31,712 nt of DNA from a virus: IMG/VR virus record IMGVR_UViG_3300017769_000071, positions 1 through 31,712 of that record. One strand, written 5' to 3'. The notes below the pieces were generated by a model. That model was not told where the DNA came from and searched no databases. It was given only the letters and a program-made list of their open reading frames with translations. A program made the position numbers and the translations under genes. Shown one piece after another: positions 24,886-31,712 of this stretch (its first letter is position 1; the number at the start of each line of letters is the position of its first letter).

Positions 24886-25410
24886 ATGCCAAAGGTCGGA
24901 GAGGACTTGCCAAAGGAACAGCGCGAAGCTGGTCTAAGGCGTTTGAAACCACAGCAACAGGAATTTCTTGATTACTATCTGCACAAGGATATGACGCAGA
25001 CAGAAGCAGCGCGAAGAGCGAAGTACAAAAACCCGACAGTGCAAGCTGTCAGGCTATTGCGTAATCCAGTGGTACAAGACCGTTTGCAAGAGATGAGATT
25101 GGAGGCCCAAGCAAGGTTCGGGGTCACAGTGGACAAGTCTATTCGGGACTTGAAAAAGATTCGGGATCAAGCGTGGGAGATGGGTAAGTTCAGCGAAGCA
25201 ATTCGGGCTGAAGAGTTGCGCCTGAAAGCTGCGGGACTACTGATCAACAAGCAGCATGTCATCAAAGAGGAAATAACTGCGTCTACAAAAGAGGAAATAG
25301 CGAAGAAACTAGAGGACTTCAGGAGACTCGCAGAGGGTCGTATGCGTAACGTAACACCAGATATGGAAGCAATAGAGCATGAACCACAAGATATAGTAGC
25401 GGATAATTGA
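24886..25410 (+). CDS. terS: Terminase small subunit
   Basis: 174 residues, RBS GGAGGG. The N-terminal part RLKPQQQEFLDYYLHKDMTQ, TEAARRAKYKNPTVQAVRLL and RNPVVQDRLQEM is the helix-turn-helix region of the Terminase_2 small subunit family; a helical oligomerisation part (SIRDLKKIRDQAWEMGKF) and a charged tail follow. It recognises the packaging start site on phage DNA and delivers it to the large subunit, which is not in this window. Unusually it lies among small accessory genes rather than directly before the large subunit. The pentamer array about 1.3 kb upstream is a candidate recognition region. Confidence 0.85.
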   Translation: MPKVGEDLPKEQREAGLRRLKPQQQEFLDYYLHKDMTQTEAARRAKYKNPTVQAVRLLRNPVVQDRLQEMRLEAQARFGVTVDKSIRDLKKIRDQAWEMGKFSEAIRAEELRLKAAGLLINKQHVIKEEITASTKEEIAKKLEDFRRLAEGRMRNVTPDMEAIEHEPQDIVADN

Positions 25411-25430
25411 GAATCGACTAATTGTTCTCG
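25409..25430. promoter_or_regulatory. O2-related element after terS
   Basis: Core ACTAATTGTT with GAGAA (25409-25413) and TTCTC (25425-25429) as paired flanks. It overlaps the terS stop codon region. Confidence 0.35.
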
Positions 25431-25467
25431 TTTGCCTTGGGCGGGGGGACGGGGCGGAGCCTGCGGG

Positions 25468-25489
25468 TTCCAGTAGAATTGTTCGGGTT
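25468..25489. promoter_or_regulatory. O2 element
   Basis: TTCCAG, TAGAATTGTT, CGGGTT. Core conserved, arms mixed between the CCAG and CGGG types. It leads into the TTCGGG repeats upstream of the terminator. Confidence 0.4.
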
Positions 25490-25543
25490 CGGGATGGTCT
25501 TCGGGCTTCGGGCTTCGGGTTCGGGCTTGACTCGGCCTTCGGG
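25482..25543 (+). repeat. TTCGGG hexamer cluster
   Basis: Seven TTCGGG copies at 25482, 25488, 25500, 25507, 25514, 25520 and 25538. In RNA each UUCG with flanking G/C could be part of stable tetraloops, and the G3 runs give a G-quadruplex motif. Confidence 0.65.
25503..25525 (+). other. G-quadruplex motif
   Basis: Four GGG runs at 25503-25505, 25510-25512, 25517-25519 and 25523-25525 with loops of 4, 4 and 3 bases, fitting the canonical G3N1-7 pattern on the + strand (DNA and mRNA). Confidence 0.55.
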
Positions 25544-25578
25544 GTCGGGCCATGATTGGTTGATTCCTCCCAAGACCT

Positions 25579-25610
25579 CCCCGGTGGCACCCGTGCTGCC
25601 GGGGTTTTTT
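25579..25610 (+). terminator. Rho-independent terminator after terS
   Basis: CCCCGG (25579-25584) pairs with CCGGGG (25599-25604), and the inner GGCAC pairs with GTGCT through wobble-tolerant bases; six Ts follow. Strong terminator for the terS unit, with O2 copies on both sides. Confidence 0.8.
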
Positions 25611-25626
25611 GTTCGGGGTCGGGAAG

Positions 25627-25648
25627 ACACAGTACAATTGTTCGGGTC
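25627..25648. promoter_or_regulatory. O2 element
   Basis: ACACAG, TACAATTGTT, CGGGTC. Core identical to the copies at 25761, 26165 and 27082. Lies just after the terminator. Confidence 0.45.
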
Positions 25649-25696
25649 CAACCCCGGTGTTATGTGTGCCAGTTGTGTTAGTCGTCAATGCTTTGT

Positions 25697-25753
25697 CCAA
25701 CAGCAGTGTTACTGTTACCAGTTGTATTCCCAACAGCAGTGTTATTGCTACCA
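25697..25753. repeat. Two 24-base direct repeats
   Basis: CCAACAGCAGTGTTA then two variable pyrimidines and TACCA, at 25697-25720 and 25730-25753, start to start 33 bases. They differ at two positions, both C/T. A weaker third unit (CCAAC, GTGTTA, CCAGTTGT) precedes and a partial one (ACAGCAGTGGTAAT) follows at about 25790. Confidence 0.6.
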
Positions 25754-25760
25754 TTGGTAA

Positions 25761-25782
25761 AACCAGTACAATTGTTCCTTGT
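25761..25782. promoter_or_regulatory. O2 element
   Basis: AACCAG, TACAATTGTT, CCTTGT. Left arm and core consensus, right arm diverged; an alternative GTACAA/TTGTAC pair exists within it. Confidence 0.45.
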
Positions 25783-25873
25783 ACGGATAGACAGCAGTGG
25801 TAATCTCGGCGTTGGGAAAACAAGAAGAAGCAGTTGAGGACAATCTGTATGATAAAAAAATATTATTTTCTTG

Positions 25874-25902
25874 TTGACTCACCTGGCAATGATTGCTATA
25901 TA
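25874..25902 (+). promoter_or_regulatory. O1-controlled promoter 4
   Basis: TTGACT at 25874-25879, 17-base spacer, TATATA at 25897-25902. GCAATGATTGC sits at 25886-25896, perfect O1. Drives the small membrane protein gene at 25933. Confidence 0.8.
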
Positions 25903-25932
25903 TAATAGGTAAGTTAAACAAAGGAGGCAAAA

Positions 25933-26103
25933 ATGACTAAGGGAGATCTAGTAACGGGACTCGGCTTCGTCCTCGTGTTGTTGATGTCGGGGCTAGAGCC
26001 AATGCCTCACAACTTCCAAGCTTTCTGGTTTCACATCGGGCTTCTGATGATCGGGGTGGTAGCTATGGCTACGGGAGTATGGATGAGGTGGAAGCGAATC
26101 TAA
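25933..26103 (+). CDS. Small two-helix membrane protein
   Basis: 56 residues. AAGGAGG precedes the ATG by about six bases, and O1 promoter 4 lies 30 bases upstream, so this short frame has better expression signals than most neighbours. Two hydrophobic segments (VTGLGFVLVLLMSGL, then HIGLLMIGVVAMATGVWM) are separated by a polar turn (EPMPHNFQAFWF), and the protein ends with basic WKRI. The shape fits a small holin or a superinfection-type membrane protein, but no family is recognised and the distance from the lysozyme argues against a simple lysis cassette. A one-gene unit with a terminator 23 bases after the stop. Confidence 0.65.
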   Translation: MTKGDLVTGLGFVLVLLMSGLEPMPHNFQAFWFHIGLLMIGVVAMATGVWMRWKRI

Positions 26104-26115
26104 CCAGAACAAATC
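26102..26115. promoter_or_regulatory. O2 half-site
   Basis: AACCAGAACAAATC beginning within the stop codon. Only the left half of O2 is present. It precedes the terminator at 26126. Confidence 0.35.
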
Positions 26116-26125
26116 ACTGAGACTC

Positions 26126-26151
26126 ACCCGGCTTCCGCCGGGTATTTTTTT
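26126..26151 (+). terminator. Rho-independent terminator
   Basis: ACCCGGC (26126-26132), TTCC loop, GCCGGGT (26137-26143), then a run of seven Ts. Confidence 0.85.
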
Positions 26152-26164
26152 GTCCGCAGGCTAT

Positions 26165-26186
26165 AACCAGTACAATTGTTCGTGCT
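26165..26186. promoter_or_regulatory. O2 element
   Basis: AACCAG, TACAATTGTT, CGTGCT. Placed after the terminator and before O1 promoter 5. A GC-rich hairpin and an A-run/T-run hairpin follow before the promoter. Confidence 0.45.
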
Positions 26187-26248
26187 ACTTCTGAGCGCCG
26201 GAAGCCGCAGCACGGCTGCAAAAAAAAACTTTTTTGTGCTTTTTCTTA

Positions 26249-26277
26249 TTGACACTGCTTGCAATGATTGCTATTTA
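26249..26277 (+). promoter_or_regulatory. O1-controlled promoter 5
   Basis: TTGACA at 26249-26254, 17-base spacer, TATTTA at 26272-26277, with perfect O1 GCAATGATTGC at 26261-26271. Drives 26310 and the GGCT-like gene. Confidence 0.8.
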
Positions 26278-26309
26278 TATACCTATCGAAACAAGAAGAG
26301 GTAAAGACA

Positions 26310-26612
26310 ATGTACAAGTACCAAGAAATCAAAGAGCATTTTGTTGAGTGGATGGAAGAGCAAGACGCTGAGTGGCTACAGGCTAACAAAGACGACTGGC
26401 ATCACCACGCCTTCAACATGGACTATTACATCATTGGAACACACAAAGCCAAAGAATGGATGGGTGACAAAGTTTTTGACATCATTGAAGCCATCAAGAC
26501 CTACGAGCAAGATAACTTTGGTGAAGTGACAACAGACTTTTCCGACCCAGAAAAGCTAGTGAATATGTATGCTTATATTGTGGGTGAAGAAGTCGTGAAC
26601 GAATGGAGATAA
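26310..26612 (+). CDS. Acidic protein of unknown function
   Basis: 100 residues from ATG 26310, which has GAGG in the recurring leader GAAGAGGTAAAGAC; an upstream TTG lies inside the promoter and is excluded. It is acidic and Trp-rich (YKYQEIKEHFVEWMEEQDAE, WLQANKDDWHHHAF), helical, with a DYYIIGTHKAKEWMGDKVFD centre. It may be an inhibitor-type small protein, since such acidic Trp-rich shapes are common among phage counter-defence proteins, but that is a guess. The next frame, the GGCT-like gene, follows after four bases. Confidence 0.55.
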   Translation: MYKYQEIKEHFVEWMEEQDAEWLQANKDDWHHHAFNMDYYIIGTHKAKEWMGDKVFDIIEAIKTYEQDNFGEVTTDFSDPEKLVNMYAYIVGEEVVNEWR

Positions 26613-26616
26613 AGAG

Positions 26617-27015
26617 ATGTTATACTTTTCTTATGGTTCAAACTTGAACCAATCACAAATGGCTTTCCGCTGTCCTACAGCGGAGCCGCTTGGGTCCGCA
26701 TACTTTCCCGGCTGAAAACTGGTGTTTAAGGGTGTTGCCGATATTGTTATCGGGGAACCTGAAGACTTGCTACCTGTCGGGATCTGGAATATTGGGCCTT
26801 GGGATGAGGCAGCACTAGATCGGTATGAAGGCTTCCCGCGTTTATACAGGAAGGAAACAATTAACGGGATGATGACTTACATTATGAACAAACACGGGTT
26901 GCATCCACCGTCAGTCGATTACTTCAACACGATTTTGATCGGGTATGATGACTTCGGGCTTGATACTTCGGCGCTTTACTCGGCGCTTGATGAGTCAGAG
27001 CTTTCTGTAGCCTAG
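26617..27015 (+). pseudogene. Gamma-glutamylcyclotransferase-like protein with in-frame TGA
   Basis: One continuous frame of 132 residues apart from TGA at codon 33 (26713-26715). Before it: MLYFSYGSNLNQSQMAFRCP, TAEPLGSAYFPG. After it: KLVFKGVADIVIG, PVGIWNIGPWDEAALDRYEG, FPRLYRKE, PPSVDYFNTILIGYDDFGLD. This is the AIG2/GGCT fold of the phage type, with substrate loop YGSNL and catalytic Glu near codon 71. Family proteins typically have Trp at the TGA position (PGW-x-LVF-x-GVADI, from memory), and TGG to TGA is one base. GGCT enzymes release 5-oxoproline from gamma-glutamyl amines or peptides. The gene may be inactive, read through, or carry a sequencing error. The 3' part alone could start at GTG 26722. 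Confidence 0.75.
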
Positions 27016-27031
27016 TAAAATTGTTCTGGTT
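27010..27031. promoter_or_regulatory. O2 element over the GGCT stop codon
   Basis: GCCTAG, TAAAATTGTT, CTGGTT. The TAG stop at 27013-27015 is part of the left arm. Right arm is consensus. Confidence 0.45.
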
Positions 27032-27039
27032 CCGAAGAG

Positions 27040-27069
27040 ATCCCCGCAGCACGGTGCGGGGATTTTTTT
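27040..27069 (+). terminator. Rho-independent terminator
   Basis: ATCCCCGCA (27040-27048) pairs with TGCGGGGAT (27055-27063), then seven Ts. O2 copies lie 9 bases before and 13 bases after. Confidence 0.85.
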
Positions 27070-27081
27070 GTCCCCGGAAAA

Positions 27082-27103
27082 AACCAGTACAATTGTTCCG
27101 TTT
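27082..27103. promoter_or_regulatory. O2 element
   Basis: AACCAG, TACAATTGTT, CCGTTT. With the copy at 27010 it can form 12 of 13 base pairs around the terminator. Confidence 0.45.
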
Positions 27104-27153
27104 ATTTACTAAAGATTCAACGCAAAAAAAGTATCAATCGCTACTTTTTGTTG

Positions 27154-27182
27154 TTGACTGTTTGCAATGATTGCTATAACTT
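27154..27182 (+). promoter_or_regulatory. O1-controlled promoter 6
   Basis: TTGACT at 27154-27159, 17-base spacer, TAACTT at 27177-27182 (TATAAC two bases earlier is an alternative -10). Perfect O1 GCAATGATTGC at 27164-27174. An AAAAAGTA/TACTTTTT hairpin lies just upstream. Confidence 0.75.
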
Positions 27183-27216
27183 ATGTATATCGTTAACAAG
27201 TAAGAGGTATAAAACA

Positions 27217-27429
27217 ATGTTTAATTACGCACATGTTGTAAAGATGGCTGGATGGAAGCTTTATCATGTAATGACACCAGCAGATGATCTTCTTGTGTCT
27301 GTCGCGCCAAATGTAGATCTTGATGATAACGTCACTGCTTTCTGTCATGAGGAGCAAGAGATGATTAAGATTCAGGGATGGAATTGTACATTCCAAGAGA
27401 TTGATTACATGACAGGAAAGGAATTGTAG
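27217..27429 (+). CDS. Small protein of unknown function
   Basis: 70 residues from ATG 27217 with AGAGG upstream; earlier in-frame starts lie in the promoter. Contains AHVVKMAGWKLYHVMTPADD and a C-terminal KIQGWNCTFQEIDYMTGKEL, with regular aromatic residues suggesting a small alpha/beta fold. No family recognised. One base separates its stop from the next ATG. Confidence 0.5.
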   Translation: MFNYAHVVKMAGWKLYHVMTPADDLLVSVAPNVDLDDNVTAFCHEEQEMIKIQGWNCTFQEIDYMTGKEL

Positions 27430-27430
27430 T

Positions 27431-27679
27431 ATGTGGTTCGCTAGTGTTTCTCCGAATATCTGGATTGTCGATGATGGCACACTGGATACAGTAGTCAGGT
27501 TTTATGATGGCAAAGACACACAAACTTATCGTTACGATACCGAGTATCGTAATGGTTTCCCTGATGACGATCAATTTCTGCGAGAGGTATACAAAGAATT
27601 AAATGCGTATGTTGTGCAGAATGAGATTAGGTCAGTGCATACTGGTAACTCAAACCCAGCAGGCAATCCTTGGGATTAA
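27431..27679 (+). CDS. Small protein of unknown function
   Basis: 82 residues, beginning MWFASVSPNIWIVDDGTLDT, with a beta-rich first half and an acidic helix (DDDQFLREVYKELNAYVVQN). Ends with a Pro/Trp tail (NPAGNPWD). Second gene of the two-gene unit from O1 promoter 6, closed by a terminator 20 bases later. No similarity recognised. Confidence 0.5.
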   Translation: MWFASVSPNIWIVDDGTLDTVVRFYDGKDTQTYRYDTEYRNGFPDDDQFLREVYKELNAYVVQNEIRSVHTGNSNPAGNPWD

Positions 27680-27699
27680 ATAATTCGATCTAATACGAG

Positions 27700-27724
27700 C
27701 CGGGCAGCGATGCCCGGTTTTTTT
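27700..27724 (+). terminator. Rho-independent terminator
   Basis: CCGGGCA (27700-27706), GCGA loop, TGCCCGG (27711-27717), seven Ts. Confidence 0.85.
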
Positions 27725-27731
27725 GTGTTCA

Positions 27732-27753
27732 AACTAGTATAATTGTTCTGAAT
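27732..27753. promoter_or_regulatory. O2 element
   Basis: AACTAG, TATAATTGTT, CTGAAT. The core contains TATAAT but there is no -35 box at 17 bases (CGGTTT), so a promoter is unlikely. Confidence 0.4.
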
Positions 27754-27858
27754 CGGGGAATCGGGGATCGGGGATTCTGTTGCCTGCCCCATAGTATTTT
27801 GAGCGCTTCCGTCCTCCTAACATAAACCCCCCACGCGCGTTCTTTTTTTCTTTTTTTT

Positions 27859-27875
27859 GAACAATTGTTCTGGTT
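27859..27875. promoter_or_regulatory. O2 element, palindromic core
   Basis: GAACAATTGTTC is a perfect 12-bp palindrome followed by TGGTT, the full right arm. It follows a T-rich tract and lies 47 bases before O1 promoter 7. Confidence 0.45.
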
Positions 27876-27921
27876 ATTTTTAAGTCATTGTTTTTAAACA
27901 ATAAAACAGTGCATTTTTTTA

Positions 27922-27950
27922 TAGATTTGTGCAATGATTGCTGATATACA
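27922..27950 (+). promoter_or_regulatory. O1-controlled promoter 7
   Basis: TAGATT at 27922-27927, 17-base spacer, TATACA at 27945-27950, with perfect O1 GCAATGATTGC at 27931-27941. The weaker -35 suggests lower basal activity. Drives the amidoligase gene. Confidence 0.7.
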
Positions 27951-28005
27951 ATAGAGACAAGGCCGAAGGTAGGCCTGCAAAACTAGAAAAAAGGTAGTAA
28001 AAACA

Positions 28006-29382
28006 ATGACTTACAATTTTGAAACAGACTTTCCGACATTTGGCGTTGAATGGGAATGGTGCAATGCAAGGCCAGCAATTATCAATCCGACTGATGATAC
28101 TAGGGTTAAAGCCAAAAAAGAGGCTTTTAATCAGGCTGGCGAAATAGCCCATGGTTTTAAAGCACATCGTAATAATTGGGATTACGAAAATTGGGCCAGA
28201 GAATTGACAGCACTTGGCTTTGACTGGGTTTTCTATCAGGGTGTTGACCGTCATTCTTCCCCTGAAAGCACTCAAGGCATTAAATGCGAGGCTACCAGCC
28301 CACCATTCTCAATTCTTTCAATGCAAGCCAAGTCTGACATCAAGCGTTTTTTAAATGCCATTGAAAGCCTTGGTGGTAGGGGTTGGCACCAATACCGCTT
28401 TGAACAAGAGTACAAGGCTGGCATGCACTGTCACATTGGCAACGCTTGGATATTGGCAAGTCACCAGTCACCAGATCAACATTGGCATGAAAGCAAGCAA
28501 TACATGGCATCGTCAAAACGCCACTATTCTGGCGCGACTGGTGATGTTATGCCATTGGAATTAGCAAAGGATGTTATCACTAGATTTGCTGGCGCACAGC
28601 ATGACGCATGCTTGCCATATGACAGGCGTCAATCATCTGGCAACTATGGCCATGGCCTCTGGCCTTGTACTGATATCAGACACGTTGCTGAGAATGGTCA
28701 AAGTCATTCTGATTTCTGGAATGCTGACACGCCAGCAAGTGCCGCCAGAATATTAGGCCGTCACGGTAGCAGTTCAAAATTTGCCGCTGTTTCGCTTGAT
28801 ACATGGACAAGACTTGGCACTGTAGAATTTAGACAACACCAGACAACACTTAGTGTTGATAAGCTTTGGCATTGGCTTGGCTTGATTGATAACGCTTTTA
28901 GGACCAGTGCCAAAGGCCGTATCAATTGGCTGGCCATAGGCCAGAGTGCAACACCAAGTGTTGTATCAACGCCAGAGCAATTGTTTCGCGCCCACAGTCG
29001 TCTAGGTTTGATCTACACAATGATAAGGCGCGATGGGGGTGCTACCACTCAAGACTTGATTAACGCCACTGGCATTGAGGCTCAAAGCATACGCGCCAGA
29101 ATGACAGAGATCCGCAATCGTCTCTCAGCCTCTGGTGTTGATGGTCAATCAGCACTGGTTACACACACGCAACAAGCCTATGGCAACGCTTATGGCGCAA
29201 GCCAAGGCCGTCATGATTTGAATGGCTATGAGGTATTGAGAGAAGTCACAACAACGCCAGTTCAACTTGATCCACTGCTATCAGAGAATGCCAGAGGCCC
29301 GGCCTCACTTTGGTATGGTTTATCAGACGATGCCTTTGAATATTTCCAGAGGCGAATACACACATATCGCAATAGCGCATGA
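28006..29382 (+). CDS. Amidoligase (Amidoligase_2-like) with C-terminal winged helix
   Basis: 458 residues. Amidoligase motifs: FGVEWEW at 12-18 with E15 and E17, GMHCHIG near 139-145, and GTVEFRQH near 272-279. These are the metal and ATP-binding positions of the glutamine-synthetase-like COOH-NH2 ligases predicted to join carboxyl and amino groups on peptides or small molecules. Residues about 340-375 (GGATTQDLINATGIEAQSIR, then ARMTEIRNRL) read as a winged helix of the kind used to bind DNA, an unusual addition. Gly is mostly GGC and GGCC is frequent, unlike neighbours, suggesting a separate origin. A one-gene unit with its own promoter and terminator. The substrate is unknown. Confidence 0.75.
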   Translation: MTYNFETDFPTFGVEWEWCNARPAIINPTDDTRVKAKKEAFNQAGEIAHGFKAHRNNWDYENWARELTALGFDWVFYQGVDRHSSPESTQGIKCEATSPPFSILSMQAKSDIKRFLNAIESLGGRGWHQYRFEQEYKAGMHCHIGNAWILASHQSPDQHWHESKQYMASSKRHYSGATGDVMPLELAKDVITRFAGAQHDACLPYDRRQSSGNYGHGLWPCTDIRHVAENGQSHSDFWNADTPASAARILGRHGSSSKFAAVSLDTWTRLGTVEFRQHQTTLSVDKLWHWLGLIDNAFRTSAKGRINWLAIGQSATPSVVSTPEQLFRAHSRLGLIYTMIRRDGGATTQDLINATGIEAQSIRARMTEIRNRLSASGVDGQSALVTHTQQAYGNAYGASQGRHDLNGYEVLREVTTTPVQLDPLLSENARGPASLWYGLSDDAFEYFQRRIHTYRNSA

Positions 29383-29394
29383 CCATGCGCTATA
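29373..29394. other. Hairpin spanning the amidoligase stop codon
   Basis: ATAGCGCAT and ATGCGCTAT pair over 9 bp with a GACC loop; the TGA stop lies in it. No T-run follows; the true terminator is at 29411. Confidence 0.5.
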
Positions 29395-29410
29395 TCTCTT
29401 AACCATGATT

Positions 29411-29437
29411 AGGCCGCCACTGGCGGCCTTTCTTTTT
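29411..29437 (+). terminator. Rho-independent terminator
   Basis: AGGCCGCC and GGCGGCCT pair around an ACT loop, followed by TTCTTTTT. Confidence 0.8.
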
Positions 29438-29455
29438 GTCTGGTGGGTATGTAGT

Positions 29456-29475
29456 ACCCGAACAATTGTACGGGT
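29456..29475. promoter_or_regulatory. O2 element with fully paired GC arms
   Basis: ACCCG, AACAATTGTA, CGGGT. All five arm positions pair, with bases different from the AACCAG type. It lies after the terminator. Confidence 0.5.
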
Positions 29476-29698
29476 TCAGTGGCGCTCAGATCGCCGCTAT
29501 TGGCATTGTTGCTGCTGGCAGGTACCCTAAGCCTGCAAATATCCGCAAAATATCGGGCGCATGGGTATATGTCCCCCCCTTATAAAAAAATCTTGACACG
29601 GCGATGGGTTGCGCCAAGTTCCCCATAAACAACCACCAGATTTTACGCAGATATACCCCCCTAAAAATTTTGCAAAAAAATTTTATAATATTTTCTCA

Positions 29699-29727
29699 TA
29701 GACTTCTTGCAACCTTTGCACTACATT
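29699..29727 (+). promoter_or_regulatory. O1-type promoter 8, variant operator
   Basis: TAGACT at 29699-29704, 17-base spacer, TACATT at 29722-29727. TGCAA-CCT-TTGCA at 29708-29720 is a perfect dyad in the same place as O1 but with altered inner bases. It drives 29753 and the XRE gene, which could make this the autoregulated site. Confidence 0.65.
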
Positions 29728-29752
29728 CTATTCATAACCAAAGGAGGGTGTA

Positions 29753-30004
29753 ATGAAGACTTTTAAGCTAAACGTAGGTGGTGATCCCATCTTCTTTGAA
29801 GCTTCAGATGCGTCTGGGTTTCTGGACGCATGGGGCGTCATTAACAGAAACTGGTCGCCGGATGCTGACAAATGGAGAAGGGCTGCTGCTCAACTTGCTT
29901 GTGACTTTTCTGGCAAGCCAATGCGCTTTGACAATGACTCAAATCTTGCTACCGACATGATGGAAGCTGGCATGTTGGAGGAGGTAGGAGATGCACAAGG
30001 CTAA
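29753..30004 (+). CDS. Small acidic protein of unknown function
   Basis: 83 residues with a strong RBS (AAAGGAGG). Short beta start (KTFKLNVGGDPIFFEAS), then helices with WRRAAAQLACDFSGKPM and an acidic end (MMEAGMLEEVGDAQG). No fold recognised. It overlaps the repressor-like gene by 14 bases, and the two are likely produced together from promoter 8. Confidence 0.55.
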   Translation: MKTFKLNVGGDPIFFEASDASGFLDAWGVINRNWSPDADKWRRAAAQLACDFSGKPMRFDNDSNLATDMMEAGMLEEVGDAQG

Positions 30005-30371
30005 AGAATCATACAGCATGTGGAGCGGCAAGATGCTTGTAGACAAGCGTAAGTCGTTAAACATGACACAAATGGCGATGGCTCGTACTTTGGGTGTGAG
30101 CCATCGTATGTATTGTTATTATGAGAAGGGTGAGCAGAACATTCCACGCTCTGCCGAATTAGCTGTGCGTTGGATGGAATACAACAGTGCTGACGGCATA
30201 TTTCGTGTAGCGCCAAATCCTGACAAGAGTTTAACGTCATTTGACCGTGAGCGTATAATCAGACTGTGCGGTGCATTGGGTGGTACGGAGGGTACTGACG
30301 CTCAAATGGACAAGATTTTACAGCAGTCAAAGAAGGAGCTTGAGTATCTGTTGTCAAAGTTTGAAGAATGA
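29991..30371 (+). CDS. XRE-family helix-turn-helix regulator
   Basis: 126 residues. An HTH of Cro/CI type at about residues 22-55 (LNMTQMAMARTLGVSHRMYC, then YYEKGEQNIPRSAELA), followed by a helical C-terminal part (TDAQMDKILQQSKKELEYLL) that could dimerise. XRE dimers bind short dyads like GCAAT-N-ATTGC, so this is the best candidate for the O1 regulator, and it is itself downstream of an O1-type promoter. No LexA-like cleavage domain is present. RBS GGAGG; overlaps the upstream gene by 14 bases. Confidence 0.8.
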   Translation: MHKAKESYSMWSGKMLVDKRKSLNMTQMAMARTLGVSHRMYCYYEKGEQNIPRSAELAVRWMEYNSADGIFRVAPNPDKSLTSFDRERIIRLCGALGGTEGTDAQMDKILQQSKKELEYLLSKFEE

Positions 30372-30410
30372 CCTATCATTGGCTCCATGTATTTTCCGTA
30401 GGGGATGGTC

Positions 30411-31712
30411 ATGGCGAATTTTATGGGGCCGATGGCACCGCCACAGGCGGCGCAACCACAACCACCGCAGTTAGACGTTAGAACGAATCCGGCACAACGA
30501 GCGCAGTTTAAGAACTTCATGTCGAGCATGTCTGCTCCCATGATGCCGACCACTGCGCCTGTTGCTCCGATGCTTCCTGCGCCAAGCCCCATGGACCAGA
30601 TTGACATCTTTGATCCTGTACAGGCCATGGCTTCTGGCGGCGTTGTTGGTGGCCTTGAGGATTTAGGCAAGATGTCTGGTCAGATGGTTGAGGCTTTGAA
30701 CACTGTTGTTTATGGCGGTGGTCAGGGTGGTGGCATGGGCGGTATGCCTTCTGTTCAGCCGTTGCCTGACACGGGACAAATAGCAACACAATTTCCTATG
30801 AATAATGCGATAACGCAGTTTCCTAGTCTTCCTACTAAGATGTCTCCGGGCATAAGCACTGGACCGGGTGCGAATCTTTTAGACATGCAATCCAGATATG
30901 ATGAGGCTGTAGCGGATGCCAGAAGGCAGCGTGAGGGTGGTTTCATGGGCCGCGTGGTGTTGCCCGGTGAGATGTCGTTTGATGATTTTAGTGAGTTTAA
31001 CTCAGTTGCAGACAATTATGAGCCTTTGCAGGGCGTGGGTTCACAGCCATACATAGGTAATCCCATATTTGATCAGATCCGTGCTTTTGCTGACGGTGGA
31101 GCCGCTGGTGACGGTGGCAGGGAACGTGGTCGTGGTGGTTTTCAAGGCGCTGGAGATGCTGGCTTTGCTGGTGGAGGTAATTTCCCTTCAGAAACCAGCG
31201 GTGGTGGGAACCAAGACAGCGGTAAGGATGACAATGAGTCCGCTGTTGATGCGGCTTTAAATAGAATAATTGATCAAATAAGAGATCCTGATCCAGATCC
31301 TGTTATTAATCTTAATCAAAGATTAGCTGAAACTCAATTGGACCCTATGGGTACTTTGGTTGAGCAAGTAACTCCGTCTGAAGACACATCTAACACCAGT
31401 TCAGCAGTGGGTAATGTTTCTCAACAACCCGGTTCTGGTATAGCCGCCGTTACAACAAATAAAGGCTATGATGGCTTTACTTTTGACAATTTGACAGATC
31501 TTTTTGAGTTGCAGGCTATGCAAGCGGCTTCTGCTCAAGATACCGAAGGCACAATTGCAGAAAACGCATCAGATGATGTTGTTGACGCTGCTGTAGGGCG
31601 GCGGTTTTTGACCCCCGGAATGGATGGCCCTACTCCTGCACAATTAGCCACTCAATCAATTCCTGACGAGCTTTCTGGTCAATCTCCGTTTACGAGTGGT
31701 GGAGTTCCTAGA
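30411..31712 (+). CDS. Pro/Gly-rich, probably structural protein, 3' end missing
   Basis: 434 codons without a stop up to the window end. ATG 30411 with AGGGG six bases before it is preferred; ATG 30405 is in frame. Starts MANFMGPMAPPQAAQPQPPQ, then FKNFMSSMSAPMM and PVQAMASGGVVGGLEDLG, with Gly-rich blocks (YGGGQGGGMGGM, FADGGAAGDGGRERGRGGFQ) and later acidic, disordered-looking stretches. ASGGVVGGL-like and FADGG-like motifs occur in internal virion proteins of marine phages. It could open the late structural module that would continue right of the window. Specific role unknown. Confidence 0.6.
   Translation, partial: MANFMGPMAPPQAAQPQPPQLDVRTNPAQRAQFKNFMSSMSAPMMPTTAPVAPMLPAPSPMDQIDIFDPVQAMASGGVVGGLEDLGKMSGQMVEALNTVVYGGGQGGGMGGMPSVQPLPDTGQIATQFPMNNAITQFPSLPTKMSPGISTGPGANLLDMQSRYDEAVADARRQREGGFMGRVVLPGEMSFDDFSEFNSVADNYEPLQGVGSQPYIGNPIFDQIRAFADGGAAGDGGRERGRGGFQGAGDAGFAGGGNFPSETSGGGNQDSGKDDNESAVDAALNRIIDQIRDPDPDPVINLNQRLAETQLDPMGTLVEQVTPSEDTSNTSSAVGNVSQQPGSGIAAVTTNKGYDGFTFDNLTDLFELQAMQAASAQDTEGTIAENASDDVVDAAVGRRFLTPGMDGPTPAQLATQSIPDELSGQSPFTSGGVPR

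Follow-up and report, generated by a model that had tools for sequence, protein, structure and literature searches.

The window analysed here, a 31,712-nucleotide stretch of a marine phage record, contains an open reading frame on the plus strand (positions 28006 to 29382; ATG start, TGA stop) that encodes a 458-residue protein with two-domain homologues in 35 other virus contigs. The gene lies downstream of that for the terminase small subunit (24886), an arrangement kept in related contigs, among cargo genes that include a gamma-glutamyl cyclotransferase (GGCT; 26617), small genes and an XRE-type protein (29991); the terminase large subunit was seen downstream of the cargo in loci L002 and L011. 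We looked for unannotated amidoligase copies between terS and terL of the terminase relatives HTVC027P and DSL-LC04 and found the genes there to be unrelated, so in marine phages the terminase interval seems to accommodate variable cargo. The small-to-large terminase interval (24886 to 31712 in the window) carries different cargo in HTVC027P, HTVC023P and DSL-LC04. Among named phages, those closest in terminase (56-62%) have Pelagibacter, a gammaproteobacterium or no known organism as host.

Residues 1-313 (28006 to 28944, plus strand) form the amidoligase core, which is predicted to adopt a glutamine synthetase fold (E15xE17, E95, H141xH143, E274xR276) on the basis of invariant residues, PF12224 matches and structural comparison with VIA-align. 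The E-x-E, H-x-H and TVEFRQH motifs noticed in a first-pass annotation of the DNA are present, as E15-x-E17, H141-x-H143 and T272-V-E274-F-R276-Q-H278, and the ligand residues are among those invariant in an alignment with five annotated phage amidoligases that share 19-25% identity with the window protein (G13, E15, E17, D81, E95, S98, H141, H143, R207, C221, G271, E274 and R276). We take the E-x-E and E-x-R residues to be those of the glutamine synthetase site. In Pfam searches with the window protein alone, Amidoligase_2 matched residues 251-291 with an E-value of 0.025 and HTH_24 matched with an E-value of 0.2, and the protein by itself scored under the Pfam cut-offs (14.9 versus 22 for Amidoligase_2; 20.2 versus 29.5). 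These weak scores arise because the protein is divergent, not because the families are absent. Of the 43 aligned homologues, 41 match Amidoligase_2 (PF12224) at E ≤ 0.01, the best at 3.7e-46, and L116 and L026, from the same clade as the window protein, score 47 and 52 bits. The amidoligase assignment made at first pass is supported, although the window protein itself is below the cut-off.

Following the core is a predicted winged helix of the DUF3489 type, at about residues 325-418 (28978 to 29259, plus strand), assigned from DUF3489 matches and an AlphaFold2 model. DUF3489 (PF11994) matched residues 328-370 of the window protein with an E-value of 6e-4, under the curated Pfam cut-off, and matched 30 of the 43 aligned homologues at E ≤ 0.01 (best, 3e-15). 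AlphaFold2 run with the 43-sequence alignment modelled both domains (pLDDT 84.9, pTM 0.74; an earlier input of three near-identical sequences gave a pLDDT of 33 and was discarded), and the winged helix in the model consists of helices 332-341, 348-355 and 359-375 and wing strands 384-387 and 407-410. A winged helix had been proposed at residues 340-375, with structure prediction and HTH profiles as checks; the predicted fold and the DUF3489 match both agree that the domain is real, but that range covers only its helical core. The recognition helix keeps Arg363 in 32 and Arg370 in 40 of the 43 sequences, and the long wing is conserved as well (Q389, Q390, Y396, G397, Y408). The net charge of the domain is nearly neutral in the window clade (-1 to +3), whereas the winged helices of distant relatives are mostly basic (about +2 to +10). 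No part of the protein is more constrained than the winged helix: between the window and L001, pN/pS was 0.08 for the winged helix and 0.15 for the core, indicating that the domain is under strong constraint, whatever its ligand.

The model aligned with glutamine synthetase (7tf9) at a VIA-align Z score of 11.4 (rmsd 3.8, 225 aligned; Z 10-11 is the range for glutamine synthetases) and with YbdK (1r8g) at a Foldseek E-value of 2e-3 and a VIA-align Z score of 10.6. The window protein is thus like both enzymes in fold, but it is only about 11-16% identical to them and has an extra domain. Searching BFVD by fold returned 27 proteins at E ≤ 1e-3, many of them named amidoligase, with a DUF3489 protein as a weak match at rank 44, and a PDB sequence search with the window protein returned no significant match. 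Because the structural alignments to glutamine synthetase extend to residue 458, the last helix (residues 441-457; 29326 to 29376, plus strand) belongs to the enzyme: it is one of the core helices of the ligase fold and comes after the inserted domain. A profile of this helix (about xxFYxxRxxxL) also places it in the enzyme, as 29 of the 43 amidoligases without a winged helix matched it at the extreme C terminus, versus one match to shuffled sequences. In the model and in these sequence comparisons, the winged helix is inserted ahead of the final core helix and not appended to the enzyme.

An IMG/VR search with the alignment to the five annotated phage amidoligases recovered contigs whose match extends to the C-terminal end, at identities of 88, 50, 44, 41, 33 and 28%, and a profile of the C-terminal part matched 35 other virus contigs at 178 bits or more. 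Amidoligases with DUF3489 also occur on bacterial contigs, from Spirochaetia and Desulfovibrionales, and both domains are clear in L089 (3.7e-46 and 3e-15). A tree built from the catalytic part, with poor support for its deeper branches, placed the window protein in a clade of 18 rows (SH-aLRT 99), all of which have the C-terminal domain. Judged by sequence, the two-domain design is a real family, conserved across the whole clade and in about 35 other virus contigs, and comparison shows the predicted window protein to be a phage amidoligase of the Amidoligase_2 family with an inserted DUF3489 winged helix. With the window protein as query, tblastn found no match in named phages at 1e-5 (weak amidoligase matches appeared at E up to 10) and nothing relevant in plasmids. 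We found no report of an amidoligase-winged helix fusion in the open-access literature; an earlier description is possible outside that scope.

The first-pass annotation held that a ligase able to bind nucleic acid as well would be unusual. The pairing of ligase and winged helix is real but only partly unusual: it is conserved clade-wide, and HTH-like domains occur on many other amidoligases. Extensions were C-terminal in 38 of 84 representative amidoligases, N-terminal in 31 and at both ends in two: L067, apparently through a misassigned start codon, and L052, which has pentapeptide repeats. Most of the N-terminal extensions examined were small and HTH-like, and these fell into two or more unrelated kinds (HTH_23 in 8, HTH_38 in 6 and HTH_18 in 5 of 20, all with weak E-values), and some of the C-terminal extensions are not winged helices. 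That HTH-like domains are found at the N terminus of other amidoligases, and almost never at both ends, indicates that pairing with an HTH domain recurs. Extension type required about 17 changes on the tree, versus 36 for shuffled labels; the split is partly inherited, and the 84 representatives are not 84 independent observations. The N-terminal 80 residues of L056 and L079 form a zinc-ribbon-like extension with no HTH. Phage Amidoligase_2 proteins such as Arthrobacter phage Salgado gp98 and those of Vibrio phage 1.293.O and Bacillus phage 055SW001 have catalytic residues in common with the window protein, but the annotated phage amidoligases that we examined lack the DUF3489 domain, and those of Salgado and a Porphyromonas phage have an N-terminal HTH-like extension instead. 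DUF3489 proteins, in turn, have the winged-helix helices and the recognition-helix arginines in common with the window domain; here, though, the domain is not free-standing but lies within an enzyme and, in the window clade, is nearly neutral in charge.

The GGCT gene (GGCT/AIG2-like; 26617 to 27015, plus strand), which matches PF06094 at E 4e-6 and phrog_2520 at E 7e-26 when an in-frame TGA at 26713-26715 is read through, lies 0.99 kb upstream of the amidoligase gene. Of the 84 representative amidoligases, 39 have a GGCT in the locus sequence available (31 within 1.5 kb, 36 on the same strand), often immediately downstream at 9-60 bases, and Vibrio phage 1.293.O, Bacillus phage 055SW001 and phage C75C1 resemble the window in having a GGCT near the ligase. 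GGCT is rare beside N-terminally extended amidoligases (3/31), indicating that the pair is not obligatory. The GGCT frames of the window, L001 and L002 each have one TGA, at codon 33, in a Trp position; no interruption occurs in any other GGCT copy recovered, and W or Y is commonest at that column (W 23, Y 16 and H 8 of 58 homologues). Purifying selection acts on either side of the TGA: the window and L001 differ by 6 synonymous and 0 nonsynonymous changes before it and by 29 and 13, respectively, after it. A sequencing error was rejected as the explanation, since contigs of three metagenome records carry the TGA and synonymous divergence between the window and L001 is 0.40; an altered genetic code was rejected because TGA ends several ordinary genes in the window, the amidoligase gene included, and selenocysteine is unlikely because none of the homologues carries Cys at that column. 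It is possible that the UGA is read as Trp or that translation re-initiates at a GTG nine bases on, at 26722; a hairpin about 25 bases downstream of the TGA (z -1.4 and -2.6) is not decisive. The GGCT of the window clade may, judging from its reading frame, not be a plain active enzyme, and with its conserved in-frame TGA it is a checkable candidate for recoding.

An 11-base palindrome, GCAATNATTGC, occurs five times in the window (20803, 25886, 26261, 27164 and 27931), always between genes, versus 0.02 copies expected from base shuffles; in several units it sits between a -35-like and a -10-like box, and it is conserved in related contigs. One copy, GCAATGATTGC, lies in the amidoligase promoter region (27931 to 27941), another in that of the 26310-GGCT unit (26261 to 26271, with TTGACA upstream and TATTTA downstream), and a third in that of the 27217-27679 unit (27164 to 27174). 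Because the palindrome precedes both the GGCT unit and the ligase gene, the two are probably co-regulated. The palindrome is a candidate operator, perhaps for the XRE-type HTH protein (29991 to 30371, plus strand; HTH_3 E 2.5e-4), a candidate regulator of the palindromic promoters, and an XRE gene is present in all ten family loci that have the palindrome, the window included. A second intergenic palindrome, near CCAGNACAATTGTTCTGG in sequence, recurs at 25470, 25629, 25766, 26167, 27012, 27084, 27737, 27856 and 29457 (nine window matches with up to three mismatches, versus 0.01 expected); it flanks a terminator-like hairpin in places and is also found in related contigs.

Ligase chemistry is established for the glutamine synthetase fold, and for the window protein it follows from family membership. 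Phage amidoligases are common; published suggestions are that they alter the cell wall to block superinfection or take part in the synthesis of secondary metabolites (PMC10580990). We propose, with a probability of about 0.6, that the window protein is an ATP-dependent carboxylate-amine ligase with the winged helix as its targeting module; it is most likely a gamma-glutamyl or isopeptide ligase steered to its acceptor by that domain. ATP would activate a carboxylate as an acyl phosphate, with the glutamate gamma-carboxyl or a peptide carboxylate as the likeliest candidate, and attack by the amine of a second molecule would yield a gamma-glutamyl amide or an isopeptide bond. The winged helix, between the last two core helices, would bring the ligase to the acceptor, and GGCT would trim or remove gamma-glutamyl groups.

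The domain may, as the first-pass annotation had it, direct the ligase to a DNA-bound host protein or act as a protein adaptor. We tentatively favour, at slightly less than even odds, recruitment through nucleic acid or a nucleic-acid-bound partner, which would fit the retention of Arg363 and Arg370, the basic domains of distant relatives and the repeated recruitment of HTH-type domains; the near-neutral charge in the window clade argues against strong DNA binding here. That same neutrality, together with the long conserved wing (Q389, Q390, Y396, G397 and Y408) and the insertion of the domain inside the enzyme fold rather than on a tether, is what would be expected if the winged helix were instead a protein or peptide adaptor, akin to a RiPP recognition element, that holds the acceptor near the active site, off DNA. 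We regard an adaptor as a lesser though real possibility, given that the recognition-helix arginines are conserved, that the domain is basic in distant relatives and that no candidate precursor peptide was identified beside the gene. BirA is a biotin protein ligase joined to a winged helix, and in this it is like the window protein, but its ligase fold is unrelated, its winged helix is N-terminal and its operator is known. By analogy with BirA, the winged helix might bind an operator such that the ligase autoregulates its own gene and the GGCT unit, and the promoter regions of both this gene and the GGCT unit, as well as those of neighbours, do contain GCAATNATTGC. Such autoregulation is improbable, however: every family locus with the palindrome has a separate XRE-type protein, more than ten loci that lack both the XRE gene and the palindrome (e.g. 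L018-L023, L110-L114 and L120) retain the winged helix, and the domain is not basic.

Modification of the envelope, as in superinfection exclusion, has been proposed for phage amidoligases such as that of phiEco32 (PMC10580990, PMC11318856, each citing Iyer et al. 2009), and the winged helix might then be merely an oligomerisation or stability element. A stability role does not predict that several HTH-like types should be attached at either end of amidoligases, and we consider this explanation unlikely. It is likewise doubtful, although worth stating, that phage amidoligases as a class are HTH-recruited, probably nucleic-acid-targeted, protein-modifying ligases, with HTH-type domains acquired independently, at either end, in several lineages. 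If so, amines or glutamates would be joined to nucleoid, transcription or packaging proteins rather than to the cell wall. Most of the sampled forms have an HTH-type module at one of their ends, and what this module binds offers a direct handle on the substrate. With regard to the origin of the gene, the bias toward GGC among its Gly codons (22 of 36) and the excess of GGCC are real (12 copies, or 8.7/kb, versus 52 in the other 30 kb; 64, or 2.0/kb, in the whole window), but the horizontal acquisition read from them in the first-pass annotation does not follow, since the excess is largely an effect of codon use (the gene's own codons in random order gave a mean of 8.2 GGCC, P(≥12) = 0.10) and the place after the terminase small subunit gene is kept in relatives. 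No acquisition event is required to account for the composition. Recent acquisition of the amidoligase gene alone is very improbable: its GC content is much the same as that of the window (0.468 and 0.451), its neighbours are the same in related contigs, and its tree group within the clade consists of genes with those same neighbours. Relative to their own loci, the genes of L011, L012, L017, L018 and L024 have no marked GGCC excess, whereas that of L001 does.
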